In this document: piece after piece, positions 11,307 through 45,700 of the stretch | Layout: each line of letters opens with the position of its first letter | Numbering within the stretch: the stretch's first letter is position 1 | NCBI RefSeq assembly: GCF_030936135.1 | Contig: NC_082611.1 | Coordinates: 248,001-312,000, forward strand | Source: Gavia stellata | Taxonomy: Eukaryota; Chordata; Aves; Gaviiformes; Gaviidae | Reading direction: 5' to 3' | DNA length: 64,000 nucleotides | Translations under genes and position numbers: made by a program | Notes under the pieces: model-generated | The model's input: the letters and a program-made list of their open reading frames with translations, nothing else | Database searches by the model: none | What the model was told of the DNA's origin: nothing

Positions 11307-11336
11307 TCACATCCTGGAACCTCGTTCTTGCAAAAT
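11307..11336 (-). CDS. KCTD5: KCTD5 exon 6 (last coding exon)
   Basis: It encodes ILQERGSRM and a TGA stop, identical to the end of mammalian KCTD5 and KCTD2. The acceptor is GTCTGTTTCAG|ATTTTG. It is only 30 coding bases long, 8.4 kb from exon 5, and was found by matching the conserved tail. The 3' UTR follows directly. Confidence 0.95.
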   Translation of the reverse strand: MLQERGSRM

Positions 11337-17300: not shown

Positions 17301-20300
17301 CACTTGAGAATGTAACTGGATGCAGATGTTATGAACAAGCTTTGGTCATTTGTCCCAAGAGTGACAGGTCAACAAAGTGGTATGAAAGAGAAGAATACTC
17401 GTGGGAACACAGGTTATCTTTTAGTAGTGCCACAGCTACCAGTAAAAGCCACTGGAACCATTTAAGTCAATGTCCCAAATGCCATTAATTTCCTTCACTT
17501 AGGTTTATTAGAAGGTTACACAGACGTCAACTACTAACTTGCTATGCAAACTGTTTTCCAAAAAAAGAAAACACAAGAAAATAAAGCCTCTAAGAAGGAA
17601 CGAAGGTGAAGCTTGATTAGATGGGCTATCAGAAAATGCTTTTTCCTATCTGAAAGTCCAGTAGTATTAATTAAAACTGAAGTGCTTGTCAATAAAAATG
17701 ACATACTGGCAGTTTTTTGTTTTGTCTAACCCAACCTGCTGTAAAAGTAATAGGAAGACTTTCTCATGGCTTCTAAAAGTCAGTCACAGTACATGAACAC
17801 ATTATTCTGTATATATAATTGGATACTAGAATTTAAACCATATGAACTTCATGAAGACCAACTCAGACATTAATGAACAGATTGCAGAGTAGAGGGTTAA
17901 CGCTGGCTAAGAGGGAACTATTGAGACAACAGCTCCCAAGGTCCAGTCAAGATCCCTGAACACAGCTGTCAGAAACCTCTCAACCAAAAAGAATTTTTTT
18001 TTGTTTTTTTTTTTCTTTTTTTTCCCCAAGGTGCAACATACACCTATAAAAAAAATAACAGATCTATTAGAAACACAATATATAAAAAAATGATTCTTCA
18101 AGTATTGACATTAATTGCTAGCAACAGCTCAGCTCTTCCAGGACAAAAGGAGTGAATGTTTATATCCAACCAAAATTAACAGTAATTCTTATTCATCACT
18201 CTGGTCAAATTATGCTCTGCTCTCTTCTCCGAAACAACGACCAAGAAGCACTTCAACAGAGAGGTCTAAGATTTAGCTTCTCTCAGAGCTACTGAATGTA
18301 TAGAGTTGTACTGCGTTCTCAACTAACTATTGTATTTAGGGTTTAATAGTTCCATTTGATCTGTATTTTCTTTTACATTAACGATGCAATGTAACTCTGG
18401 CAACTTCTGAAGTTCCCTGAAGATGTACTACCATTCCTTATAAAGATGTTTATTAGGTTCTAGAATTCCACGTTTTATTTCAGGTACATCTCAGCCCTAA
18501 ATTATTACCACACACCTCTTTAACTTGTCAACTTTTAAAGTCTTCCTGAAGTATCCTGGCAAAAGCAGACCTTGACTAGCGTTTTGGAAAGAGTGAGCTG
18601 TGGCTTACCCAGGTTCACTGCTTACCCTTGACTACATTAAAACTTCCAAAGAGTTGTTAGGGATTACCTCAACAGTTACAAAAGAGCATAAATTAATCAC
18701 TTCACTAAGAATCCAACATAAAGATTGGAGTATTTTTATAGTGCAGTTTACAAAAAATGTCTCCATATGTGTAGCTGTATAACCAAGTTACAAGGCACAG
18801 AGAGTAGTGAAGTTTTATCTATTTGAGATCTCAGTGCCAAGACTCAGATAAATTCTTAGCATTATTTCAAAATTAATTTCTTTGAAGGTGATTCTTGAAA
18901 AAGCAACCTTTGATGTTTTACCAGTGGTTTCCCATCTACACATACTAAATGAAAAGCATTTAGGCCAACTACAGAAGTTTCCAGTTTGTCTGTAGTCATC
19001 TCCTCATACAAAGCAACAATATAATCATAAAAACTGTTCAATACGCATGGAAGAGAAGAATACACTTACATACATAACTGGTCTATTCAGTTGTGTTTAT
19101 ACATTTTCCCTTGTACAAACTCTGAAAGACAGCTGAGTAAAATGCTAAGATACTGTTCCCATCACAATCTTTTTGTAATGCTTGTTACAGAAAGTAAAGA
19201 GAACTAGGTAGAAACATGAAAATATTAAGCTAACAAATACCTTCATCGATAACATATTGCACAGGACTATGTTTTTCAGAGACAGCATATTACAATCTCC
19301 ATTCTTGACAGTAAGATTCCATCAGCTGAACTCAAGTAAGAAAACCAGTTTCCAACCAAACCAGTGGCAGAATAAGGAAGCATTCAAATGTCTAAGAAAC
19401 AAAACCCAGCTTCTCAACTGTAAACAGCAACTATCTGCCAATACTCGAAAAAACAGGACAGGTATCAGGAATGGTAGACTACTGCAATTAAAGAACCCAT
19501 TTGGTATAACAAACACATACTGACTGTACCATTTACAGTCCCTCATACAATGGACAGGGAACCACTATTAGTCATGAGTGAGGGGAAAAAAGGCAATTAA
19601 ATAATAGTCCAGAACAGAGGTAGGCCTAGCACAACTTAGTGAAGGCCACCCAATTTGACACCATTTCTTTAGTTCAATGTCTAGTAACTTACCTTCGCTT
19701 TTTCACTGGGTTCACTGGTTGTGCCATAGGGAGTGTTATGCAATTCCTTTGAGACAACACACAGAAATTCAGCCTGATCTTCATTGCCATAGTTATAGGA
19801 AGAACCAATACTGACCAGCTGAAAGATGGGGGGGGGGGGGAAAAGTCAATTGCATTTCCACATAAAACAAATCCCATAAATTCTCATCATTAGTACAAAC
19901 ACTCCTCACTCTTCAAACTGTTGGTTGTGCCTGAAGCATGATTCTCCACTTCAATGCAAACACGTTTTAATGTTAAAAAATATACTGACACTCTGATGAC
20001 AAGATAAATATAGCTTTTCTTTTTAAACATTTACAGAATTAATGATTTACGGTTATGATTATACTGTGAAAGAAAAGGCTACAGCGGCAGACCAGTGGAG
20101 AAGTAGCCTGTTCCTGTTATTTACTAGAAACCTTCCCATCCTCCAAAGTTAATTTTAAAAAAGTTTTATGTGGTATCTTAATGTAGCATGATTTAACATG
20201 TAAATGGCTGCATGCAGGAAGCACTTTAGCCTGAAGGGATACCCACCATTTTACTTACAGAATAACAATACTTCTATTAAAACATATTTTGAGTGGACAA

Positions 20301-23300
20301 AGACAAAATTTGCATTTGATTAGAAAACAGCAAGACACAGTATAGTGGGACACCAAGATTAACACCTGGAATTCGTAGGTACTGCTACAAGGAAGTTAAT
20401 TAAGGAAGCGCTACAAGCGGAAGCCATGTATAATGAAATGTGACATATTTACAAGCTTCTACAAGTCTCGATATTGAATGATAAATGACAGTTTACTGAG
20501 AAAAACGGATATACTCAACATCAGTACTACCTCATATGCAGCATGTGTTTATCAAACGGCAGAAATTTCATATAACTTGTCTTACCTTACACACAGTACA
20601 CTTACCTAATGCTAGAAGCTTTACATAGCCTGCCTTTCCAAGCCAGAATCAATTCAGATGTAGCTGGTTCATTTATTTTAAAGGTTTATTTCAAAAGCAT
20701 GACAAGATGATGTATGGTGCTCTTACTACTGACACAGATCAAAGTCCTAAAAATCAACCTGTCACACATATACACTGTATCTAAATGTCATCACCAAAAC
20801 TATATTAGATCTACCTACCAAATCACCACATACATGTGATAAGGCTGTCCTATTCCCTGATCTCTATTATATCACAGAAGTGCCCTAGTAATAGCCCCAT
20901 AGAAAAGGCTTGACTTGTTTTTGAGGGCAACAGACTTGAAACACTGTAGTTAACTGTCTAAAAACAAACTGTGTACTGCCATTAGTCGAGCAAAGCACCA
21001 AGGAGAGTAAAAGCCTTGTTAAAGCAGGGAAGATGCCGCCAAGATGCAATCTTGGTCCAGAACGTGTACTTGAGGGATAAGATTATTCCCCCAACAAAAG
21101 TGGAAGGTAGTCCAAGGTTAAAAGCAGCTTCCATATAGCACTGTCAGGAGAAAGTGAAGCCTCACTGTACTTTCAAGGAGAGAGAGGAGAGAGATGCTGA
21201 GATATTCCAGCACTGTCGTAAGACATCCAAGCAAGCACCTCCACAGACAAGACAGAGCCAATGTCTACAAAGAACAGCAGGCAGTATGTCTGCACAAGGA
21301 ACCAACCTGATGCCAGGCCTAGGCAATGGCGAAGTTTTTGGACCCTGATGGCATTACAGTATACAAGGCTCACCCTCCAATGAACAGTACTGGCAATCAA
21401 AATTCAGCACTCTCAAACTACCTACTTTAACTACACTGGTGTGATCACCAGAAAACTTCCCCTCCCTCCTCCACTCCTAACATCCCTCTAGTTCTGCAAA
21501 ATACATACATAGTCAGTAACGAAGACAGGCTGATCAAAAATGAATGTGATAAAGACATTTTTTCCACCAAAACCATGTAATGAAGTCACAAAACCCCAGG
21601 TTTTTCAGAAGCACCAATACATCCTCATTGGAACACAAAGGCACCATTTATCTTGAGATGTTAAGTCAGATAATCTTTCACGATGGATACTCTGCAGTCT
21701 GCACCATAACATATTTGTGTAATATAGAACCACAAAACCCATAAAGTAACTAGTTGCTTAGTTGCACAAAATGGACTAAAAAGTCCACTGAAAAGCTGGA
21801 AAATCAACCCGGACTTACTTCATATATAGAGATGATTTGTTGATTCTCTTTTTTATCAGCAAAAAACATCATACACAAATTTTCAGAAAAAAAAAGCGCA
21901 GTTAAGTCAGCTCTAAGCCTGTTAAAGTCATATAAAGTTTATACTATATATCATATAGCAATTATAAACCATATAATACAAGTACAGTAACTGCTTCAAT
22001 TATTGAGGTAAAATGTAGGACTATTTTAAACAATATATTTAACTGACTTAAAGGCTAGAAAACATTCAAAAAGTCGGATACATATTTAAAAAAAGCCATG
22101 CATAATTCACCTTCTCTGAAGACAAATTTGGAGAATAAAATTCAAGCATATGATTTGATTTAGTATATAGTCAACTTTTCTTCTTGCAAAATGGCAAGAA
22201 CTTGGTATCAGATAAGCTATGATAACAACTACCAGAAGGAAAAATACTTCTTTACTCATTGATACTCAGAAGAAGAAATAAATGACCTTTCTGAAAGCAG
22301 TTATGATACAAGATCCAAACATCATCCAAATCATCAATCCTAGCTCAACAAGGTCGATAGGTCCTCAGCTGATAGCGACTTACATCCCCCACTAATGCTT
22401 CATAATCCAAATAAGTTGACCTTTTGCACATAAGTCTCTTTAGGAGATGTGGCAGACTGACTACTTATTAGGTAGTTGGTTAGGACTATTGATCTAGCTG
22501 ACTGCAAAACATCTGGATGACTTCTTGCCATTGTTAATCAGCTGGTGCATTTCAAGATAAAGTCACTTCTGCAACATTAAACACAAGTTCCTCAAAGCTC
22601 CAACACATTATACTCTTGTAAGCAGTTCCATAGGTGTGCAACTGAGAATGTATTATTTGTATAGTATGAACAGCATGCTAGAAACTTCATTGTAGCTTTT
22701 TGAGATGTATCAGCAGCAATAAGGGTGATGGCAGAAAAAGAAACAATGGAAAATGATTGCAGATTAGAACTGAATTGTTGTATCAGAAAGTATGACCAGA
22801 AATAAAGCAGTATTTTAGCACTTGTATTCCAAAAGTCACCCCATTGTTTCCAGTGCTGGTGGCAACACTTTAAGAAGAATGCTAATGAACTGGAAGAAAT
22901 TGTTAAACTCCCCCCACTTGTGTCTGTCTGCCCCTGCCCCCCCAAAAAAAACCCAAAAAACTCATGACAAACCAGAGTAACCCGAGGTCTGCAAAACATG
23001 CGTTACAATCCATAGGAAAAGGATTACGGATTATCCAGCCTACTGTTTCTCAGACTTTCTGAAAGGACAAACTCTTTTTGGCTCATGGGGCTTAAACACT
23101 AGAGAGAGTTTTAATGACCAAGAACTTAAGGAAGGAAAAAAAGAACATTTTGAAACTCTGAATTTCATAGAGTTGTATGATGATATATAGATTTATATAC
23201 AGGCATGTGTTTTTCCTTCCATTACTTCTTTCATTACACTCCTTACTAAAGCAGTGTGATCCTGCTTGAGCATCCCTGTGAGCCCCAACGGTGTCATAAC

Positions 23301-26300
23301 CAAGCACAGGAAAATGCCAATGTTACTTATCACAGAAAATCCATTAGATCATGAACCATTCACTGGAATAAGGGTGCTGACACTAGTAGGCTGTCAGCTG
23401 TAACTAAAAAAGGCAGGAATGGAAAGCATTATTATTATTATTAATATTATTATTAATTAATCAACAGAAATATAATTCTTTGCATTATATTCCTTGATGT
23501 GCCAATACAGGTTAGGATTTTCCTGAATAGACAAAGAAATAACAACAGGGAAGTTCCTGTCTCATAAATCTGAACTTTTAAGTAAGATAAAAGATAACAA
23601 TCAGAAAGGACAAAGTTAAAAAACCCCAACAGTTTCACATAAGTAAAGGTGGACAGAGACTACCTGATGCCTAGCTATGGTCAGGCTTGTTTTCAAAGAG
23701 GAAAGATTTAAGAATGATTTCAGGGACAATAATGATGTAACTTTCTGAAGAACTTTTACTAAGTCTGCAGGTCTGTGAGAGGATAACTCTGTCTTTCAAA
23801 AAAGACTATTTAAGAAAAACAGATTATAAAAGCGGTATAGCTGAGAGAATAGGTCAAATGATCCCTGTATCAAGTTACTCAACGGCAGCAAAATACATGA
23901 ATCCCTTCCTGTCTTAAATCAATGACTGTACACCTAAAAATATCCCTATGAATAGGCAAAATGGTTGGTGCATCACTTTTAGGAACCTTATTTTTGAGGT
24001 GAACAAATCTCATGCCTAACTGAACTGAGACAGATCTCAAAACCAGGCACATTTCAATAACTTGCCTATACAGATTTGCTATACTGGTTTAACAATATTC
24101 ATTCAGAGTCTATACTGTACATTTACAGGACAAATTAGCAACAGTATTCCCGTTACAAATAAAGACTCCAACTTGTACAAACAGCATCCCTGTCTTTCTA
24201 TGGAGTTACTCGTATTAACTAACTCTCCTACTTCATGACTACCAATTTCCTTCTCTTTCTGTGATGGTCTGATTCTCAAAACTGAGTAAACTTCGTAACA
24301 ATTATTCTCAAATTCTATTTTAAATATTCTTATACTTTGAATATTACTGCTTCTATTTCAAATGTGGTGAACCCCTTGTACACTAAAAAGCTTGTCTTGG
24401 AAAGCTTGTCTTTTTTTTTTCCCCCTTCTTTTTAATTATACTAACTAACAATTGATAGAATAAAAGAAAGTCCTCCCCTCAATTTTTTTTACAGAATTAA
24501 GTTGCATGACGGTAAGAATGACCTCTACACCTTTTAGAGTTCTAATGCGTTCATTCTACTGCCTTCTCAAAGGATTTGCAAAAGGCTGTAAAGATACATG
24601 CACATCAGCCATAAAACTCAGCACTGATGACAGACACCAGGATTGCAAGCATATTTATTTCAGGTCTCTCAATGCAATTGTCAGACTTCAAGTCCAGGAG
24701 GAAGGAAAATTCATTCCCTTTCAGATTTTTATTTTTTTTTAAATTTTATACCTGCCTTCATTTCTTCACTGCCTTCCCCCATCTCCCATTTTATTATGTT
24801 GAACTTTACTTTGAGCTATCTAGGACATGAACACACGAATAACATCATGCTGCCTGTACCCCACGCATCCTTAACAACAGGCCACATTTCCTACTCAGTT
24901 CCAGAAAGTCTGCAAACCCAGTGCATTAGTTCCACATTCCAAATGTTACCTATGCAACTGCAAGAAACAGATAGTGCTTGGTACACTGACAGCAGGTTCT
25001 GGAACATAGCTAGGCAAGAGTCCAGGTTTAAAATCTAGAACTGCATGGCTAAGTGTCCCTGTAAACGCATAGACAAGGTTCTGCTCATATCAAGTCACTT
25101 TACTGTCATGTTATCTTCATGATGTTATACTAACCTTTCAGACTGAATAACCATATATATAGCAAGGAAAGAACAAGTACTCCAAGTATTTTATTGATGA
25201 AAATACTACAGAACACCAGGTTCCCAAATCAATTCACATAAGACACTTCAAAATGAAGCACAGCTATGTAAAGAACTGGAAACTGCCTCCAATGTTACTG
25301 GTTAGCAAAAAATCCTTCCCAAACTCTTGAACACTGAGAAGGTAACACAGCAATTAAACAAGCTGTGACCTGAGGGCGAGGGGAGCAGGAAGGATGAGAC
25401 AGCCTAAAAAGCCAATGACTGAAGCTATGAGTCTTCGTTTGGGTTTCAAGATTTCTCAAGGCAGGAAAAAACCCCAAAACAACAAAAAAATAAAGCCAAA
25501 AAATCCCAGGATGTTCTTCCCACTTGAGACGAGATTTAAAACTGCTGGTTTTGTTCTCCCCTCACTCCTCCATATTTTATTTCTGAAAAATTCTGTTATT
25601 CGTTGTTCCAGTTGGAATATAATTCATCCACCCCCCAAAAAAACAGTTAAGTTCTGAGTTACCAGAAATAAAGGGTTCAAACTCAGAACTTAACTGGCTA
25701 TTAGGTGGATGAAATACACTGAAACTGGAACAACGATTAACACAGAAACATCCCTTTCTGAACCCAGTGAACGCAAAGCTTTATTTACAGGGCTCCTAAT
25801 GTTTAAATTGTACCACGTTTACTTAACAAGTATGGATCAAAGGCTGTTAACTTTGGAGGAAGATTTAAGGAAAAGAAGTTACCTATTGAGCAGGTAAGAA
25901 CTCTTCTTAAGAAAAACCTTTGACTAAATAACTAGGGTTTTTTTGTTTATTATTTTTACAATATGAACATTCATAATGTATAATGAAATACTGTGAATAT
26001 AAATAAAAGCCAGTCACAAATACACACAAATTACTATGTGCTGTACATCCAGGAATAAAGTGGAATGATTTGAAAGCAGCAGAAATGCAAGGAGGCCAAG
26101 CATATCAGTGTGAGGGCAAAAAGAATGGTGTGACACACCTCACTGCAGCATTTCTGGAAGCATCTCTCTTCCCCTTTCACTTCCCGTGACACTATCAGCA
26201 GATACTCTGACTGCTGGGCCCGGCCACAGCTGTACTGGGGACCTATACTGACAAGCTGAAATAACCAATCAAAGCAAAACACAAAAAGAAACCTTTGTAA

Positions 26301-29300
26301 AGCTGAAGCACATACCATTATCCAAATTGTACAAATAACAGATGAGCTCAAACGTTCAGGTAACATTTACTTGCCACTAGAACAGGTTGCTATCAAGCTA
26401 CAACTTTCATTTCAACATACTTAAAATTTACAGAGGCAGTTGCAAAGCCCTTTGTAATTTCAAGGGACGGTAAGAGTTACTGATAGTAAGTCAGAAAACT
26501 CCCCATATCTCTGTGGTGTAGCCAACTACTCTGAAAAACATAAACAAAGTTTGGTGTGTTATGAAAGTAAGCATTATTTTCCTGCCATACTTGCCAAGTG
26601 CAGATGGTAACGTGGATATAAAACTGGAAAGTGTTATATATATCAATATATCAAGCCTGGGTATGAAAGAGCTTCACCTTGTTCCAGATATTGATAAACA
26701 AAATACAGCTAAGGAAACATATGAAGTCAACTAGAGGAAAAAAGTTTAGTGCTCTAAATTGGTTTTAGAAGGGGTAATTTACAGAAGATCCAAGAAGATA
26801 ACTGGGGTGGAAAAAATTGTCTTGTTGCCATAAAAATCAGTACCAAGAACTCTACTCATGCTTGCCAAACGTCTAATAATTCGGAAGTTCAGAACAACCT
26901 CAGCTAAATTTCCCAACTTGTTACTACAAAAAATATTTTATCTTAGTAATACATGACAATTCCTAGCCCATTTAAATTAAGGCATAGCCTGTCAGTGCAC
27001 TTGAGAAAGATTAGAGCTTTAAATTAAGGGTGAAGGACTAGACAACAACTGCCTATTCTGAGTAAACTGGAGATTACTATTGATGAGAAGGCTCATGAAC
27101 AGTAAATTTATTTTTATCCTGCTATTATTACGTGAATAATTTTGAAGGCAGCAGCTAAATACTGTCCTCCTCATATAGTGAACATATTTAAGACAGCATT
27201 ATGGTGACTGACTCAGGTTACATTAATCATTAAAATTTACACGACTGACACACCACTGCTGTCTAAAGCCTTTGTATGTAGCAATTTTGTAAAGCCCGAA
27301 GTTTCTTATTATGCAGTATTGCCAAAATGTTGTTTTTCCTCATTGCCTGAAGAGGTAACAATTGAAGCTAAAAATCATCTACAAAATAACCCGCTGAAAT
27401 CACAAAAGTGGGCAGCACAACTATTGGCAGTAGTTTTTGGACTGGGACGGATACATAATTGCGGTATTCTAGCAGCGCTTTCACTCGTATTCTTTGGAAA
27501 AGTGCACCAATACATCTGCGTAAGTGCACCAGAAGTTTAACACCTTTCACCCCTATTTAATCACCACATCCAATTGTATTTTACAAGAAAATTTTGGAAC
27601 GTTAAGGGGAAAGAAGTATTTTTGATCAAAAACAACCACTTAAACATGTTATATGGGGCACAGAGCACAAGTACTCTCAACCCACAGGAATATTACTCCT
27701 CTGAAAAAGCTGATGATTTCTACCCCACCAATGATAATATGTACAAAGCGTGGTAGGTGCCACCCCAAAGACTGCTTCTGAAGGAAGCAGGCTGCTGAGC
27801 AACACAGGTTTAGACAAGATAAAAAAATTACAGAAATGCTACAGTGTTCTCAAATCTTAACAATGAAAATGTTTAGATTATACAGAATATTCTAATCATG
27901 TTTCAAGTGAATGATGTCTGCTAAAAGCAGGTCTGCAATACAACCAAAGGAGAGAATGACCTAGTCTTAGATAATGAGGAACTGAGTATTATGAGACCGT
28001 AAAGCTGTTGTGTTTATCTACTTCAAACTATGTGTCCAAGAGAGAGCAACATGGGGGAGGGAGGAAGTAGGGAGAAAGCTGGATGAAACAAGGTCATAAC
28101 GCTCAAGAAAACCACTGGAATTTTCCAATTCTAAAAGAGATTCTAAATTCTAAAAGATATTATAATATTTCTTTCAGCAGCTGCACTGTCAAAAGCGTTA
28201 TTACTCCCAAGTACAATACCCACAAAGAATACAAGGCTTTAGGACAGGTAAAAGCCATAGTATCAATTAATCTGTTAAAAAGTAAAGAATCTCTATTTGT
28301 AATGAAAGCTAGTTTCTCATGACAAAGAAGAATGTAAAAAAACCTGTGCCAATGCACTGGTCAAAAACCAGTCATGTGCATTAAGTGGGAGCTTTTTTCA
28401 GGAACTTAACATTCAGCTTTTGGCATGCCAAACAGACCTGGTAATACTTGAGCTGAAGAACTGAAGCACAAGAAGCTTTCTCTGTGCTGGTTTAGTGTAT
28501 TTGAGCATGGCTGTCTCCATGACACCAGCACCTTACACATTTCATTGAATATAAACAAAACATTCTCTTTTACCTTTGTGTGCTGTACTTTTTAAAAATG
28601 TTGCTTTGTTGCATTATTAGAGTGAGATTGCACAGGGTTAAGAGGCTTGTGCTTATTCCATTCTCTCCTATAGTTGGCACCAGACACTGAAAAAGATGCT
28701 GGCGGCTGAGCAGTTGTGTCTCAATCCAGGGTTAACAGGTTCATTGCTCCAATGCAGTTTAAATATTCAGGTAGGTTAGGAACGTGAAGGATGAAGAGGT
28801 CACGTAGTTAGTTTCTTATTTACAGAGATTAGCAAAGATAACAGAAAGATCTTCCAATTTTATAATGTATTCTTTAATGTACACACAAAGCTATTTTTAT
28901 GCAGTGCAAAGAACGAAAACATTTACGTAGCTCACACCTATCCAGCATCACATCTATGCTGGTTAAGTTTACCCTCCTATGTGTATCAGTCCTTTATCTG
29001 AAGAACCATTGTTTGGGCCTGACAAACATTTACGTCCCAAGCTCATCTCTTTTACCCAGAGCTCTTTATATCTGACCTACCATTCGTATAAACTTGTATT
29101 AGTTAATTTTGCTTTATCCACCCTTCAAATGTTTGTGTGTAGACACTGAAGAATTACGTTTCAAACATGATGTAGATGTTTTTATAGAAAGTAGGCACAA
29201 TTTACCCCCTGGAAAGCTACAGTTTTTTTGTTCTCTGACAAATAAGAATACAAATATCAAATTTTAACTTAACTGTGTATCGTTATCTATTCAATTTCTG

Positions 29301-32300
29301 CAAATGACTGCACTTAAAAAGATGCATAGAATTGACTTTATACTCCTCTTTCACATAACCGAATTCTTAGAAGACTTTGTAATTGTATCCCGTATGTTTT
29401 TTTTACCTGTTCAAATTTCCAGCCATCGGACATTGTGGAAACCATTTGAGTGAGTTCCTCTTCCTGGCACTGCAGCACCCTGTACACATGTTTGACTGGT
29501 ACCTTCAAGAAGAAATATAAGATGCTCAATATAGCACAGAAATCACTATGTTTGTGACTTGTCTAAAGTTGCCCTTATTCTTCAGAAATGGTAAGCAACA
29601 CTATCTTGAACACCTTGGTTTTGTTTTTTTTTTAAAGAAATCTCATCTGTTCAGAATCACCTTACAAAAGACTCAATGCTTCATGAATGTTTCAGGGACT
29701 AAAAGTGCTACTTAACAGTAAAAACAAAATAATCTTAAGACTTACCTATCGTTCCATGTGGTAGCAAACCACATAATTAAAAATCAATGTTGAGGTTCTG
29801 CAGAGGCCTACCTAACTTTAAGGAATGTCTGACCGTAATCAAAAATGTCTTTATTTCTCTGTCAAAGTTTCCCATCCAGAGCAATGAGTAACTAGGACTG
29901 TTTCAGCTGAAACCCTTTAGAAAATGCTATCAGAGCAACTCTGCTATCCCACAACCCAGCTTCAAGAGAGATTTGGCAACATGAGTTTGTAATATCTCCA
30001 CGAAGACTCAGTTATCCGGGAAGGCCAGAGTAGCAGAGTTAAAGAACAAACTTGAATACTTTCTTTACTTAACAGTTTCTCTATCATATTCACTTTCGTG
30101 AAGAAATATTCATGAGCTGCTATGAGAAGAGGCAGAGCTTTCTCAACCACAGAGCACTACAAATACAGAAACTAACTTTGCTACAAAAGCATATGACGGG
30201 AGCTAAACAGCATCTGTATGTATGCTTTATAAACATACTGCACAAACAGCAGTTGTACTGTAGTTAGGCAACCTCAGCATATTCAGAGTATTTAAATGTA
30301 TATGAGAAAAATATATTCTACAAAAGCTGTTTTCTAAAATAACTATTTCCAGAAATGGTATTATGACAAATTCTACTATTACCAGACATTTTGGAACAAT
30401 TCTTCAGAATATTTTCAGTTTGGGAACAAGAACTGCAATGATATGCCTGTGCCCTTGGTAAGCAGACTGGCAGGTACTGGCGGTTAAGAATATTAATCTT
30501 TGTGTACTAATGGTTCCAGCTCAGCCAGTGATGGAGGCAGCCATTCCATATCTCACGGGGATATGAGCAGTTAAGGAAAAAAAAAAAAATTGAACCCACC
30601 CACTAGTTGCCATAGAACAAATAATAAAAAACACACTAAAAACCAGCCTCACCTGTGAGATTTTGCTGTCTCTTTCTCTTATTTTGTCCTTTACCAGTTT
30701 TATTAGTGATGTGATATTGTAGAATTCAGCCTCTTCCAGTACACCTAGTATGAGAACATTTTTTTGGAAAGAGAGTGTAACCAAAGATTCCAGGCCAAAC
30801 CCACCAACCAGTTCCTAGGATTATCTTCTCTACAGCTATAGAAAATGATTTTTTTTTTTTTTCCCCCTAGGAAAAGTTCATTTACCAATCTATCAATTCT
30901 GGCTTCCTTCAGGCACACGTAGTTCAAAGTTTAGCTCATTCTGAAAAACTGTCCTTAAAAAAACCTGAAGAAAACTGATGCCATTTCACATACAGAATGA
31001 GAGGCAGGAAACAAAAAAAAGAGCACAAATGCCATTCCAGAGCAGACTGATGATGGACCACCATAGCTCAGGTCCTGCCTCAGGCTGGAATATGAAAGAG
31101 AAATTCAAATAGTCCTACTGAAAAGCTCTGCAGCTGCTAGTGTTCAGAAAAATTTTCTTCCTGTCATTTGAGATCTTAGACCGTGAAACAAAAGCTTGAA
31201 GATACACTACAGACTGCTCCCACTCACATGTTCAAGCTTTACCTGTTCCCCACACATACTATGTGTTTAACAATGTACATAGAAATACAGTCTAACAATA
31301 TTAGCAGGAAATAATGTGAAATATAATTTCTCTTTGATCGATTTCTTCAGAACCTTATCAATACAGTTTTAGTACTATATTGTTTAAAACAGTCATGTCC
31401 ATTAGGGTAAAATCGATATAAATTGGGGATAGGGAGGGAGAAGCTGGGGGCAGAATTTACTCTTCAAGAGCATATTCCACATATTTGAACATCCCAGAAC
31501 TTAACTCTTACTTTGCTTTACATCTTCTAAAGCTTCTTTCACAGCCAGTATTCTTTTGCTTGAAGAAGACTAAACCCAAATATTTCATGCAGTCATAAAG
31601 GAAAGATACATGATTATACCATAAAAGGCACGTGCCCTTATGTTTGAGTATTTATGTTCTAACAGGGGACGGGGGTTATGAAATCAGGAATCATTCTCAA
31701 AACACTCAAATGACAGCATATACTGTAACTGCACGATACCTATCAGCTTTGCTTGAAACAGATTGAAATGCTACACTGATTAAGATTTACCATCTACTTT
31801 TAAGTTAGTTTTGCTGACTGAAAAGCAGTGAAAATAATAAGCAACTGACAAGAAAGCAAGAGATTTAGCAATATCTTACCTTCCTCAGCTAGGTCCTTGT
31901 TAATAACCAGTTTCCCATGTCTGAGATAGTTCAGCACTGGCCCAAAGTAGGTCGGGTCTCTGTCTATTAAATAGGCACCTGTTTCATCCTAGATTAGAGG
32001 GAAAAAAAAAAAAAAAAAAAACACCCAAAAACCAAAACAAAACAAAACCAAAACACCACAAAAAACCCCAAACAAACAAACAAACAAACCAAAACGCTAA
32101 AAACCCCACAATGATTTGAATGTCCAAGCAGGAACTGCAAGCTAATATTCAGCTTGGCATCTGAATAGCAAGCAGGTATTCAGACATAGCCACATCCCTT
32201 AAAGCCAAATTTATTAAACACGTTAAAAGGAATTCAACAATGTAGTTGTAATTGTATCAGACTGATCGCTCAACTCAATCATGTACTACACAACTTCTCT

Positions 32301-41300: not shown

Positions 41301-42402
41301 CAAGGGTTATAAGCTATTCCCTTCTTTTCGCTAAGTGCACTGTACCGGAAGTCCATTTTTGACCATTATGCTCCAAAACCTCTTTCAGAGCCAGCACTAT
41401 ATATGAATGCTTTATACACATTGCTACATACCACTCCATAAATAAAATCTTAACCAGTAACTTTCCTTGCCCTACCAAAAATGAGTCAGAATGAATGCCC
41501 GAATAGTCAGTATCACCCACCATTTGCAGTCCACGCAAAATAAGCAATGCCTCACTCAAAGAACTGCTGAAACACAGAACGCTATGGCGAAGTGACAGGT
41601 TATTATCAAAAGTAGTTTGATCTGTTTCTTGGAACTGAACAAGATGACAGTGCAGAAATAACACACCACCAGTGCAGGCAGACACTCCACCACAACACCA
41701 GAGCTAAACCCGCTCAGACAACGTCCAGATTTAAACAAACAGACGAACAATCCCGCGTTCCCTTTATTGTACTCGTAGGCAGCTGCGTTACCCACAAACC
41801 CGGTCGCTTTGCACGAGATCAGCCCTCCCGCACCCTCACCCCGGAACTCCCTGGAAGCACACGCACTCGTCCAGCAACGCGGCCCTTCAGAAGCTCCCCC
41901 GAGGGCGGCGGGGGCCGCCGCTGCCATTTCTGCGGCCTCTGGCAGCAGCACCGAGCCCCGCGCTCCCTTTCTCCTCCGCCTCGCCGCCGGCAGCCCGCCC
42001 CGCGGGAAGGCGGCACAGCACACCGAGCCCCCGGCAGCGCCGGCTCCCACGCGGGACCGCGGCACCCGCCGCAACTCTCCCTGGCCGCGGCGGCGGGCGG
42101 GGCCGGCGTGGGGAGGGGGCCCGGGGAGGGGGGGGTGGAGCGGCGCGGCCCGCGCTCACCTTGTCCGAGTCCAGGTCGGGGTCGGCCTGGCACAGGCGGA
42201 AGAGGAAGGACTTGGGGTCCCTGCAGAGCGTCTGCCGAGTGGTCAGGAAGCAGGTGCCCCCCACGTTCAGCCGCACCCACTTGCCGGGCAGCGTGCCGGG
42301 CGGCGGCGCTGAGCTGCACCGGCGGCACGGCCCGCCCGGGCCTCCGCCGCCGAGGCCACCGATGGGGGAAACCGGGAAATCGCAGTGGTTCTCCGCCGCC
42401 AT
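11307..42402 (-). CDS. KCTD5: KCTD5, BTB/POZ CUL3 adaptor (whole coding span, six exons)
   Basis: The coding sequence joins 42402-42160, 31988-31880, 30744-30653, 29502-29407, 19818-19693 and 11336-11307 on the minus strand. All junctions are GT-AG and in phase, giving 231 residues against 234 in human. The N-terminus is a Gly/Pro-rich leader. The BTB (T1-like) domain follows, from WVRLNVGGT (about residue 42) to about 145, and then the C-terminal domain with the [11 protein letters not shown] segment. The protein ends ILQERGSRM, as in mammals. Known for the family: KCTD5 forms pentamers, binds CUL3 through the BTB domain and presents G-beta-gamma for ubiquitylation, which dampens AKT signalling. 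KCTD2 and KCTD17 are close paralogues, but the N-terminus, the C-terminus and the position next to PDPK1 point to KCTD5. Intron 4 carries an alternative terminal exon. The promoter is a CpG island. Confidence 0.96.
11337..19692 (-). other. KCTD5: KCTD5 intron 5
   Basis: An intron of about 8.4 kb. It contains the CR1 fragment at 14.8-15.6 kb, an A-run at 13,346-13,361 and a T-rich low-complexity stretch near 17,995-18,023. No further conserved exon was recognised. Confidence 0.85.
14824..15590 (-). mobile_element. CR1 LINE fragment (3' part, sense to KCTD5)
   Basis: Read on the minus strand, this matches the end of chicken-repeat-1 reverse transcriptase. Recognisable pieces are [39 protein letters not shown] and [12 protein letters not shown]. 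The terminal sequence GGTTGGACTAGATGATCTTT then runs to the ATTCTGTG end typical of CR1. Several frameshifts and stops break the frame, so it is a dead, 5'-truncated copy. The 5' limit (about 15,590) is approximate. Confidence 0.93.
19693..19818 (-). CDS. KCTD5: KCTD5 exon 5 (canonical)
   Basis: It encodes 42 residues (181-222), starting [18 protein letters not shown] and ending SEPSEKAK, nearly identical to mammalian KCTD5. The donor is GCGAAG|GTAAGT. The acceptor is ATCTTTCAG preceded by a pure C13 run at 19,828-19,840. The phase is 0 at both ends, so exon skipping or replacement would keep the frame. Confidence 0.96.
19828..19840 (-). repeat. KCTD5: C13 run in the polypyrimidine tract of KCTD5 exon 5
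   Basis: On the transcribed strand the polypyrimidine tract is a run of 13 C that ends nine bases before the exon 5 boundary. Poly(C)-binding proteins such as PCBP1/2 are known to bind such tracts. An effect on exon 5 choice is an inference. Confidence 0.85.
23428..23460 (+). repeat. (ATT)n microsatellite
   Basis: A run of ATT trinucleotides with one interruption, inside KCTD5 intron 4. Confidence 0.9.
25595..25741. repeat. Imperfect inverted repeat (long hairpin)
   Basis: The left arm (25,595-25,660) and the right arm (25,679-25,741) are imperfect reverse complements, separated by an 18-base loop. Matching blocks include CAGTTAAGTTCTGAGTT against AACTCAGAACTTAACTG and CGTTGTTCCAGTT against AACTGGAACAACG, plus TTCATCCACC against GGTGGATGAA. 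It may be a degraded MITE-like element or simply an RNA hairpin in the KCTD5 primary transcript. The family was not recognised. Confidence 0.7.
25946..25951 (-). terminator. KCTD5: Poly(A) signal for the alternative KCTD5 terminal exon
   Basis: The minus strand reads AATAATAAAC here, an AATAAA hexamer 83 bases past the alternative stop codon, with T-rich sequence following. This spacing fits a short alternative 3' UTR. Confidence 0.45.
26034..26255 (-). CDS. KCTD5: KCTD5 candidate alternative terminal exon 5 (diverged duplicate with hydrophobic tail)
   Basis: The acceptor TTATTTCAG is followed by 73 codons and TAG. The exon begins [11 protein letters not shown] against [11 protein letters not shown] in the normal exon 5; 13 of the first 27 residues are identical and several others are conservative. 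Joined to exon 4 it stays in phase and gives a 253-residue protein. After the homologous part the frame encodes a basic, Cys-rich linker ([11 protein letters not shown]) and about 22 hydrophobic residues ([18 protein letters not shown] and on), ending SWMYST. This looks like a tail anchor with nearby cysteines that could be palmitoylated. An AATAAA lies 83 bases after the stop. Translation and use are inferred. The alternative is a decaying exon duplicate. RNA evidence cannot be seen here. Confidence 0.6.
   Translation of the reverse strand, partial: LVSIGPQYSCGRAQQSEYLLIVSREVKGEERCFQKCCSEVCHTILFALTLICLASLHFCCFQIIPLYSWMYST
29407..29502 (-). CDS. KCTD5: KCTD5 exon 4
   Basis: It encodes 32 residues (149-180), [18 protein letters not shown] onward to DGWKFEQ, the first part of the C-terminal domain shared by KCTD2, KCTD5 and KCTD17. 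It ends exactly on a codon, so both copies of exon 5 downstream can join it in frame. The acceptor is CTTGAAG|GTACC and the donor is ACAG|GTAAAA. Confidence 0.96.
29503..31879 (-). other. KCTD5: KCTD5 introns 2 and 3
   Basis: Two introns of about 1.1 kb each flank exon 3 (30,653-30,744). They hold only unique AT-rich DNA with short homopolymer runs. No extra exon or repeat was recognised. Confidence 0.85.
30653..30744 (-). CDS. KCTD5: KCTD5 exon 3
   Basis: It encodes residues 118-148, with [19 protein letters not shown] and the basic stretch up to SKISQ. This closes the BTB domain. The acceptor is ATACTAG|GTGTAC and the donor is CACAG|GTGAGG. The phase-1 junction with exon 2 restores a glycine codon. 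Confidence 0.96.
31880..31988 (-). CDS. KCTD5: KCTD5 exon 2
   Basis: It encodes residues 82-117 plus one base of 118. It holds the core of the BTB domain: [19 protein letters not shown] and [17 protein letters not shown]. The acceptor is CTCTAATCTAG|GATG and the donor is GGAAG|GTAAGA. The acceptor is preceded by an unusually long T20 tract and a TTTG-rich repeat. Confidence 0.96.
32002..32106 (-). repeat. KCTD5: Low-complexity T20 and TTTG-rich tract upstream of KCTD5 exon 2
   Basis: The plus strand has A20 followed by A/C-rich repeats including CAAA units. In the transcript this reads as GTTT repeats and T20, ending 13 bases before the exon 2 boundary. It supplies an extended polypyrimidine tract and many possible U/G-rich protein sites. 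Confidence 0.85.
38781..38798 (+). repeat. C18 homopolymer
   Basis: Eighteen consecutive C in KCTD5 intron 1. It is likely length-variable and prone to assembly error. Confidence 0.9.
40823..40841 (+). repeat. C19 homopolymer
   Basis: Nineteen consecutive C in KCTD5 intron 1, 2 kb from the C18 run. Confidence 0.9.
42160..42402 (-). CDS. KCTD5: KCTD5 exon 1 (coding part)
   Basis: This exon encodes residues 1-81: [10 protein letters not shown], then a Gly/Pro-rich leader with a CRRC motif, then the start of the BTB fold with [18 protein letters not shown] and ADPDLDSDK. The donor is GACAAG|GTGAGCG. The ATG at 42,402 is chosen because it matches the MAENHC start of mammalian KCTD5 and sits in a strong initiator context (GAGGATGGCGGC). 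The open frame continues past the donor to 41,887, but that part is intron. Confidence 0.95.
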
Positions 42403-42406
42403 CCTC
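42395..42406 (-). promoter_or_regulatory. KCTD5: TISU/YY1-like element over the KCTD5 start codon
   Basis: The minus strand reads GAGGATGGCGGC, one mismatch from the TISU consensus SAASATGGCGGC. Known role: TISU directs both transcription through YY1 and accurate initiation on very short 5' UTRs. Whether it acts here is an inference. Confidence 0.5.
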
Positions 42407-42728
42407 GCCGCCGCCGGAAGGGTCCGCCCCAGCTACAGGTCCCCGCGCGCGCCGCCCACCGGAAGCGCCCGCGCGGAATCGCTCCCTTCCCCCCGCTCCG
42501 CCCCGCGCCTGCGCTGCAGCCGCCTCGCCGGCGGGGGCCGCCCACGACGGCCCGCCAGGGGGCAGCCGCCAACTAGGGGCCCCAGCCGGCGGCCCAGGGC
42601 GCCGAGGCCGCAGCCCCGGAAGCGGCGCCTGCGCCTCCGAGAGCGCCGCCGGCGGGTGGGAGGTGGCGCCTGCCCGCCCCCCCGCGGCGGAAGGAAGAGG
42701 CGGAGGCCAGGCCGGGACCCTACATGCC

Positions 42729-42734: not shown

Positions 42735-45700
42735 ACAGACTACCAAGCGTAAGTGAAATCCGTCATCCAGTCACTAACTACACATCTACAGCACAGAGAT
42801 CTGTCGAGAGGAGCATAAACAGTCATTAAATTAGGAGATATGATTAAATCATCGACCAATAGAAAATTTATATAATAAAGCCAGAAAAAAAGGTGTAAAA
42901 TATAGTTTACAATAATTATTCACATTCAAGGCTGTACATCAATACATACAACACCATGGCCCCGAACATGAATTCAATCCAAATAATTCATATATTAGAA
43001 TTTAAATAACACAGACTGAACTAGAGGCCAACAAGAGCCAGCAAATAACCTTATAAGAATAAAAATACAAAAGTGTGTATCTTATATCACTGCATTATTT
43101 GCTTCTGTTTTCATGAGTTCTTGGAAGAGGGGAGATTGTTTTGTGGTGTTTGTTGAGGGGGGGTTTATTTGGTTGGGGGGTTTTTTTGGGGTTTTTTTTT
43201 TTTTTTGCTTTTATCTGTACATCACAGTTACAGCTACAAACCAGGTAGAGAATATTACACACGTAACTGACTGCCACCGACCTGAAAACAGCTAGCATAC
43301 AACTATCAAAACTGAGTATGGTTCCTGGTTCCTATTTTCTTCTCTTTTGTCAGATACAGTAATTGTAAGTTCTGCTACAGTTTAGAACATTTGCCACATC
43401 CAATCAGAGTTAGTACATGGTCATAGGAAGCTTTGTCAAATGGCAACCATCTACATTCACTACCATGCTGACAGACAGACCAGGTTATTGGGTGCTTAAG
43501 AACTTCTCTAATTGTTTGCTGTATAAAAGTCATATTTCTTCTAAGAAAGAGGACACACTTAAATTACCAGTCTTACCTTAACTGAAAGCATGCCATTTTG
43601 GGTCAGAGAATTACTTGTTTGTAAGCTCACTTGATCAACTGATGGACAATCTGTGTCATGAAGCTTTGCAGGAGCACTTCCATTTGATTAATAAAATATT
43701 TCCATAAACTATTACAGGCATTCAGCAAAATTTCAGATATAAATACCACACCTATTCATGTAATTCACTAGTAGAAAGAATGAACAGAATCCACAGTCCA
43801 CATCTTTAGGCAACTATTAATAACAAGTTCTCTCCTCAGCAAGGTATTGAAATCAAATGTTTTGTCCCCAGGCCAAATGAAGTAATTGTGTTGACTTCAC
43901 TAAATCATTCAAAAGAAATTGTTAAATGTACATGTGGGAAATCCTCAGGATTCTTCCAAGTTTCCAGCACAAAATGTAATGATATCAAGCACATTAAATT
44001 AAGCATCTTGAACTACAAAAATGGATTACAATTATCACATCTTTGTTTCAACCTACAGTTTCTACATTTATAGATAGCAGATAATTCACAACTAAATCAC
44101 ATCAGAAGGAGAAAAGTAAGTGGAGCACAGTACTATCTGATAGTTTGATGTCTTCAGCATTTAAGTACTTAGCAAATGATATCTTAATAGGTAATATCTG
44201 CTCACAATGCCTCAACATCACATCTGAAGCAAGTCTTCCTTAATATAAATCCTTCTCAAAACTGGACTTTAAGGCCAATGGTAATAAACTCATCTCTCCA
44301 GTTTATCAAAGTAGTTTTAAACTTCCTTTGACTGGGCTGGACACTGAATAAAACAGTGTGATACAAAAATCCTTTCTAGCAGTAGTACTTCATCCTTTCT
44401 AGCAGTAGTACTTCATCCTTTCTAGCAGTAGTACTTCATCCTTTCTAGCAGTAGTACTTCATCCTTTCTAGCAGTAGTACTTCATCCTTTCTAGCAGTAG
44501 TACTTCATCCTTTCTAGCAGTAGTACTTCATCCTTTCTAGCAGTAGTACTTCATCCTTTCTAGCAGTAGTACTTCATCCTTTCTAGCAGTAGTACTTCAT
44601 CCTTTCTAGCAGTAGTACTTCATCCTTTCTTAAGCTCCACCCCACAGAAAACAGATGCAATAAACACCTTCCTGAAGTTCAAATCCCAAGCAAAACAAAA
44701 TTACAACATTATTGACCAGATTCTTCACAATTGATTGGCAATTGTCCAAAATGCAAAATATGGAATGAATCAATCAACAGATTTGAGTTTTCAGTAGGTT
44801 TGCAGTGAGGAGTCTGAAGACAAGTCTTCAAGTGCCTAGCAACCCTTTTTGTGCTTTGAAAGGCCTCAGATAAAGAGCAGAGAAATTAACTGGCTTATCT
44901 GCAGCTCTGAAGAACCTCCCTTGTACGTTTCATTCCATGAACTCCCATGAACCACAGGAGTGATTCAGGAAAAAGATCTGAAGCTACCCCACTTCAGGTA
45001 TAAGCATTTAGAACAGGAACCAGCCCTCCATAGTATGCAGCACCTGCCAATATACATTTAAGTGAACAAACTGGTGAAACACACTTAAATCCACATGATT
45101 GCTTTGTCTTGCCTCACTCTAGTCTTCTCCCATCTTTCAGAATCACAGATTTCACTTACAGTCCAAGACAAACAAATAACCCTCCCAGAAAAGTTCTAGT
45201 CCCTTCCCAAAAAAAGCAAAGATAACTTGATTTGGAACACTGAAGTTCTAATGGGAGGGATGCCTGTAAGAGATGCTCACAGTTTTCTAACAGCAGCATT
45301 GTCAGAAGAAAAAAAAAGGGATACTAGAATGCAGACATCAGCCTTACAGACACTTTCTTGATCGCTTACTGCTATCAAGATTTCTTTGGCTGAAAGCTTT
45401 TGATGGGCAGGACAAATGTTTACTAAAAGGGGATTTTCAAGGTGTGAAAAAGCAGAGTAATTACTTTGTTATGGCAAAATGACTACAAGTCTAAACATTA
45501 TAGAAAACATGTTTAAACATTCCTAGATTTCCACCTAGTGAACAAGCCAATGGAGATCACTCCATCTCCTAATGAACCTAAGATGTTCAACATTATCAGA
45601 ACAACTTTCCCAGACTTTTTATGTGAGGCCAAGTTTTGTCACACCGAACAGCAGTGGCACCATGAATCTCCAACACTGCCAAACTCCTGTATAAGGTTGG

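Follow-up and report, generated by a model that had tools for sequence, protein, structure and literature searches.

Intron 4 of the KCTD5 gene of Gavia stellata contains, on the minus strand, a stretch of 39 codons (here called exon 5b) which, on comparison with canonical exon 5 of the same gene, is well supported as a tandem duplicate of that exon. We rate at about even the chance that exon 5b is a functional internal alternative exon, spliced in the place of exon 5.

The KCTD5 gene and its exons

The window, i.e. the whole stretch of 64 kb that was analysed, carries the KCTD5 gene on its minus strand (Table 1). Exons were placed by tblastn with a partial KCTD5 protein, and exons 4 to 6 were in addition checked in the sequence itself. 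The gene is identified as KCTD5 by its KCTD5-type exons, which lie in order on one strand, by the BTB domain in exon 1 and by hits to KCTD5 structures in the PDB. Intron 4 measures 9,588 nt.

Exon 1 is surrounded by a very GC-rich and strongly folding region (41961-42720; 78-86% GC in the listed 160-nt windows). A second region with strong folding and the same range of GC content in the listed 160-nt windows lies at 161-640 and may be the CpG island of another gene. About 2 kb upstream of the exon 1 match there is a 23-bp tandem repeat (44369-44630; 11.4 copies, 100% match), whose copies, being perfect, point to a minisatellite close to the KCTD5 promoter that is young or varies in length.

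Table 1. Features of the KCTD5 gene and of the exon 5b region, in order of transcription.
Feature	Position	Strand	Remarks
KCTD5 exon 1	near 42276	minus	placed by tblastn; BTB_2 family match
KCTD5 exon 2	near 31988-31880	minus	placed by tblastn with KCTD5 protein
KCTD5 exon 3	near 30744-30653	minus	placed by tblastn with KCTD5 protein
KCTD5 exon 4	29407..29502	minus	ends in WKFEQ, phase 0
Exon 5b acceptor, TTTCAG	26256..26261	minus	10/16 pyrimidines at -20 to -5
Exon 5b, putative tandem duplicate of exon 5	26139..26255	minus	117 nt, 39 codons, phase 0 at both ends
Exon 5b donor, GTGTGT	26133..26138	minus	after GAG, phase 0, score 4.49
Continuation of the frame to TAG, cysteine-rich and hydrophobic	26034..26138	minus	read here as intron; in the earlier note as membrane anchor
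AATAAA	25946..25951	minus	one of 10 in intron 4 (9,588 nt), about one per kb
Canonical KCTD5 exon 5	19693..19818	minus	126 nt, phase 0, donor AAG/GTAAGT
KCTD5 exon 6, coding part	11307..11336	minus	ILQERGSRM and stop; phase 0 after TTTCAG

Homology of exon 5b to exon 5

From position 26255, directly after the TTTCAG acceptor, there is a frame beginning CTTGTCAGT and having the phase of canonical exon 5; it joins exon 4 in phase and stays open for 73 codons, up to a TAG at 26034. The frame is part of a stop-to-stop ORF of 110 codons which extends also upstream into the intron, and since other ORFs of 110, 135 and 136 codons are found elsewhere in 20000-30500, its openness alone is weak evidence. 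Pyrimidines occupy 10 of the 16 positions from -20 to -5 ahead of exon 5b, 15 of 16 ahead of canonical exon 5 and 12 of 16 ahead of exon 6.

Residues identical to canonical exon 5 number 13 of 27 in the first part of exon 5b and 15 of 39 overall, codons 28-39 having 2 of 12 residues in common with it. The ungapped BLOSUM62 score of the 5b frame against exon 5 is 68, to be compared with 40 for the reversed window and with a mean of 37.4 (sd 2.8, maximum 45) for 60 first-order Markov windows; these controls, together with the candidate-exon scan described below, rule out a chance similarity. An earlier note on this DNA, made from the letters alone, had described the acceptor, the frame with its strand, coordinates, phase and length of 73 codons, its eight cysteines and the homology to exon 5 with 13 of the first 27 residues identical, and on all these points our analysis agrees with it (the cysteines were counted by eye).

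Among 177,635 PDB sequences phmmer gave five hits up to E 10, of which the best four were KCTD5 (E 0.47-0.74) and the fifth Tim10 B (E 1.9). Whole-genome searches covered the 1.32-Gb assembly with its 1185 contigs. Here the exon 5 peptide scored at four places, which were KCTD5 exon 5 itself, two paralogue exons and exon 5b, the last being the weakest of the four (E 5.96), and no further copy was reported. The paralogue exons belong to a KCTD17-like gene on C4 and a KCTD2-like gene on C22, which are so named by their resemblance to sequences of the family. The 73 residues of the 5b frame gave eight matches at E <= 10; one was the frame itself, one the KCTD2-like exon 5 (E 3.98), and the other six lay elsewhere (E 0.54 to 2.53).

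Two other origins of sequence similarity were considered and rejected. A transposon origin was not borne out, the 222 nt of the frame with its stop matching only themselves genome-wide (E <= 0.001; very common words skipped). The motif RCFQKCC.E, of which 8 of 9 residues recur at the KCTD2-like locus, does not represent a shared repeat, the DNA match being 21 nt long (95%) and without extension. In viral and prokaryote contig collections no relatives were confirmed, as expected of such collections.

An in-phase donor at codon 39

The 73-codon frame contains, 117 nt from its start, an in-phase splice donor at codon 39 (GAG/GTGTGT, 26139/26138), which had been overlooked in the earlier note. Scored with a consensus matrix, this donor reaches 4.49, the donors of exon 4 and exon 5 reaching 3.21 and 8.46, respectively; of the 633 GTs in intron 4, five score as high as the 5b donor, itself included. 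In the ungapped alignment the SE which ends exon 5b falls on the SE of SEKAK in exon 5, and the donors of the two exons are offset by an in-frame 9 nt (117 versus 126 nt).

A scan for candidate exons considered every open AG...GT interval between 66 and 186 nt in length that had 9 or more pyrimidines out of 16 and a donor scoring 0 or higher, and compared each globally with exon 5. Of the 62 candidates on the minus strand, canonical exon 5 scored 220, the 117-nt exon 5b 46 and a sub-candidate overlapping it 8, while the next unrelated candidate scored -11. In the controls, the best of 51 candidates on the plus strand reached 4, and the 83 and 87 candidates of the two paralogue loci gave, besides their own exon 5, best scores of -5 and 1. 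Given the good in-phase donor at codon 39, its homologous position and the result of the scan, an internal exon of 117 nt, able to join exon 6 in frame, is the simpler model.

Against this model count the modest pyrimidine tract ahead of exon 5b and the pairing of the letters of its donor, which are mostly paired in predicted local folds, more so than those of the donors of exons 4 and 5. Masking of the donor by a small hairpin (GGTGTGTCACACC) is nevertheless not claimed here, since three local folds did not exceed shuffled sequences in stability (z +0.3 to +1.4).

The 117 nt of exon 5b have a GC content of 0.538, which is reached by none of the 9,239 other 117-nt windows of intron 4 and by 4.3% of such windows in the whole 64 kb, CpG islands included. 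The GC-rich island around exon 5b (26065-26260) runs about 70 nt past the donor, a feature for which the internal-exon model has no explanation.

Age of the duplicate, selection and decay

Exon 5b and exon 5 differ at 10, 8 and 14 of the 27 first, second and third codon positions, and over all 39 codons at 19, 17 and 23. In the comparison of KCTD5 with the KCTD2-like gene the corresponding figures are 3, 1 and 14 of 27. The count of differing third positions is the same in both comparisons (14 of 27), which supports a duplicate old enough for its synonymous sites to have diverged; judged by the first and second positions, exon 5b is far freer to change than exon 5.

An old duplication kept under protein-level selection, with conservative replacements, had been proposed in the earlier note. 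The age stands, on the evidence of the third positions. Selection on the protein was not demonstrated by a four-sequence codon model, in which the 5b branch had an omega of 0.375 over 27 codons (2dlnL 1.59 versus omega = 1) and of 0.106 over 39 codons (2dlnL 0.67, with the 5b branch length at its upper bound), rough estimates in which several branch lengths hit bounds and by which omega = 1 was not rejected with either codon set. The conservatism of the replacements holds for codons 1-27, where it is reached by 1.1-1.3% of simulated neutral copies of about equal identity, but not for all 39 codons, where 22-24% of the neutral runs reach it, so that it is not unusual.

These data bear on the possibility that exon 5b is a dead relic, descended from an old tandem duplication of exon 5 and no longer spliced, in which the frame and the letters of the splice sites have so far survived by luck. 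We regard this as a serious possibility, although falling short of an even chance. In its favour, the differences from exon 5 are nearly evenly spread over the three codon positions when all 39 codons are taken, and the value omega = 1 stands unrejected. Tandem exon copies are moreover common, being present in about 10% of animal genes according to a figure cited in PMC9013439, and the human screen reported there has 4,027 unannotated intronic targets, at least some of which are perhaps expressed.

Against a relic speak the simulations of free decay, which took today's exon 5 as the ancestor, neutral distances of 0.3, 0.56 and 0.79 and indel rates set by assumption at 0.05-0.15 per substitution. 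In 0.09-3% of the runs the acceptor, the donor and the open frame survived together, and no more than 0.04% ended with an open frame and a GC content of 0.538 or higher; to this are added the conservative replacements in codons 1-27. When set against free decay, the intact splice sites and frame, the raised GC content and the partly conservative replacements thus suggest selection on exon 5b, to be read with the bias that the 27-codon stretch was picked by its similarity and the whole finding for its intactness, the latter being a point in favour of a relic.

The hydrophobic continuation of the frame

The earlier note had read the frame through to its stop as an alternative last exon, ending at TAG 26034 and polyadenylated at the AATAAA, which would give a membrane-anchored KCTD5. 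We consider this unlikely. In its favour are the openness of the frame over 73 codons, the hydropathy of 2.22 in a 19-residue stretch past the 5b donor, the AATAAA, which is indeed present after the stop (at 25951), and the raised GC content, which persists for about 70 nt beyond the donor. The 39 residues ahead of the donor have a maximum hydropathy of -0.0, the hydrophobic stretch beginning about at the donor.

The transcribed strand of intron 4 has 71 ORFs that are 34 or more codons long; 5.6% of them reach a hydropathy of 2.22, and 27% hold a stretch of at least 1.6. Since so many of these ORFs hold such a stretch and AATAAA occurs 10 times in the intron, about once per kb, both the tail and the poly(A) signal are unremarkable for the AT-rich intron 4, although they might now and then serve as another end of the transcript. 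The 73 residues match no Pfam family, which also counts against the membrane tail, though exon 5 itself has no match either. As the frame holds a good in-phase donor at codon 39, at the place homologous to that of exon 5, and a tail of a kind common among intron 4 ORFs, the proposed membrane-anchor C-terminus is probably just intron.

About 400-550 nt past the 5b donor lies a near-palindrome of 149 nt (25594-25742). Folded as RNA it gives a single long hairpin (157 nt, -74.7 kcal/mol; z -11.35, none of 200 shuffles being as stable), and its matches in the genome search were confined to itself and its reverse complement (very common words skipped). No Rfam family reached its threshold over the window.

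Model for the use of exon 5b

In the internal-exon model, exon 5 of KCTD5 would long ago have been copied in tandem into intron 4, and the copy (26255-26139) would have retained an acceptor, the reading frame and a donor. Some cells would then splice exon 4 to exon 5b and exon 5b to exon 6, exon 5b replacing exon 5. The resulting isoform would retain the BTB part, which binds CUL3 and oligomerises, together with the last nine residues ILQERGSRM, but the second half of its C-terminal domain would be a variant one. Through its BTB domain it could join pentamers of KCTD5, KCTD2 and KCTD17, and might in this way alter the choice of substrate or partner.

The introns flanking exon 5b would be 3,151 nt long on the side of exon 4 and 6,320 nt on the side of exon 5, and 117 and 126 are both multiples of three, so that neither steric hindrance nor a frameshift forces exclusivity, which would need regulation or a folding constraint. 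Inclusion of exon 5b along with exon 5, as an ordinary cassette exon adding 39 residues, would be possible for the splicing machinery, as both exons are of phase 0 and multiples of three and 6,320 nt of intron separate them, but it is very improbable, because the repeated half-domain probably would not fold, following the argument in PMC5740500 that a folded protein is unlikely to contain in tandem similar exons which code for parts of a single fold.

Relation to paralogues and to known tandem exons

The paralogues KCTD2 and KCTD17 (named by sequence) have, like KCTD5, their own homologous exon 5, and that of the KCTD2-like gene has 16 of 39 residues in common with exon 5b. They differ in being separate genes, and a second exon 5 was sought and not found in intron 4 of either the KCTD2-like (2.6 kb) or the KCTD17-like gene (0.4 kb).

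If used, exon 5b would belong to the tandem duplicated, mutually exclusive exons, which are well described as a class (PMC9741552, PMC9013439, PMC5740500). Exon 5b is homologous to exon 5, its neighbour within the gene, and has the same frame, a length within 60 nt, no in-frame stop and GT-AG ends, which are properties that PMC5740500 uses for recognising such exons. Exon 5 of SNAP25, exons 4a/4b of OGDH and exons Ab/3 of U2AF1 are, like 5/5b, homologous neighbouring exons with their own splice sites, and the 5/5b pair is moreover of similar length and of the same frame. In distinction to these vertebrate tandem exons, exon 5b is a candidate alternative exon, sharing 13 of 27 residues with exon 5 in its first part and 15 of 39 overall. 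KCTD is absent from the main texts of the three papers cited for the class, and among the matches listed, which come from open-licence papers, there is no mention of a second KCTD5 exon 5.

ASCOT (PMC6952364) lists RT-PCR validation primers for a novel exon of mouse Kctd5, which, as exon 5b would be, is an alternative exon located towards the 3' end of the coding sequence. The forward primer agrees with exon 5 of our window at 18 of 20 positions by visual count. This presumably places the mouse exon downstream of exon 5, outside intron 4, and makes it a different exon from 5b.

Possible effect on substrate binding

Of the residues of exon 5, LVSIG, Y, G, Q, E, L, VS and E are retained in exon 5b; NYGNEDQA of exon 5 has become SCGRAQQS, and most residues after it are changed. 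KCTD5 restrains signalling through G proteins, as it directs free G-beta-gamma to CUL3. In the solved complex each KCTD5 C-terminal domain touches blade 1 of G-beta (PMC13361646), charged and polar residues in the C-terminus of KCTD2, KCTD5 and KCTD17 are described as a hot spot for interactions (PMC9976452), and the C-terminus of KCTD5 as important for the interaction with KCTD8, KCTD12 and KCTD16 (PMC10531988). In PMC9976452, KCTD2, KCTD5 and KCTD17 with their whole C-terminus swapped for that of KCTD9 retained co-precipitation of G-beta-gamma, and a KCTD5 hot-spot mutant retained binding, seemingly less of it. As both the chimeras and the mutant still bound, the 5b isoform might shift or weaken binding and not abolish it.

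Should exon 5b turn out to be a relic, it would still be the mark of an old duplication of an exon whose canonical form in KCTD5 is little different from that in the paralogues. If it is used, splicing would be enough for tissues to change what the adaptor binds, and exons 5 and 5b would together offer a natural experiment on the C-terminal residues which choose substrates. That KCTD5 has in birds, or in some wider group, a second and regulated exon 5 which retunes the substrate-contacting domain is a tentative and rather doubtful proposal; if true, one CUL3 adaptor pentamer could hold two kinds of C-terminal domain, with different specificity for G-beta-gamma or for partners.
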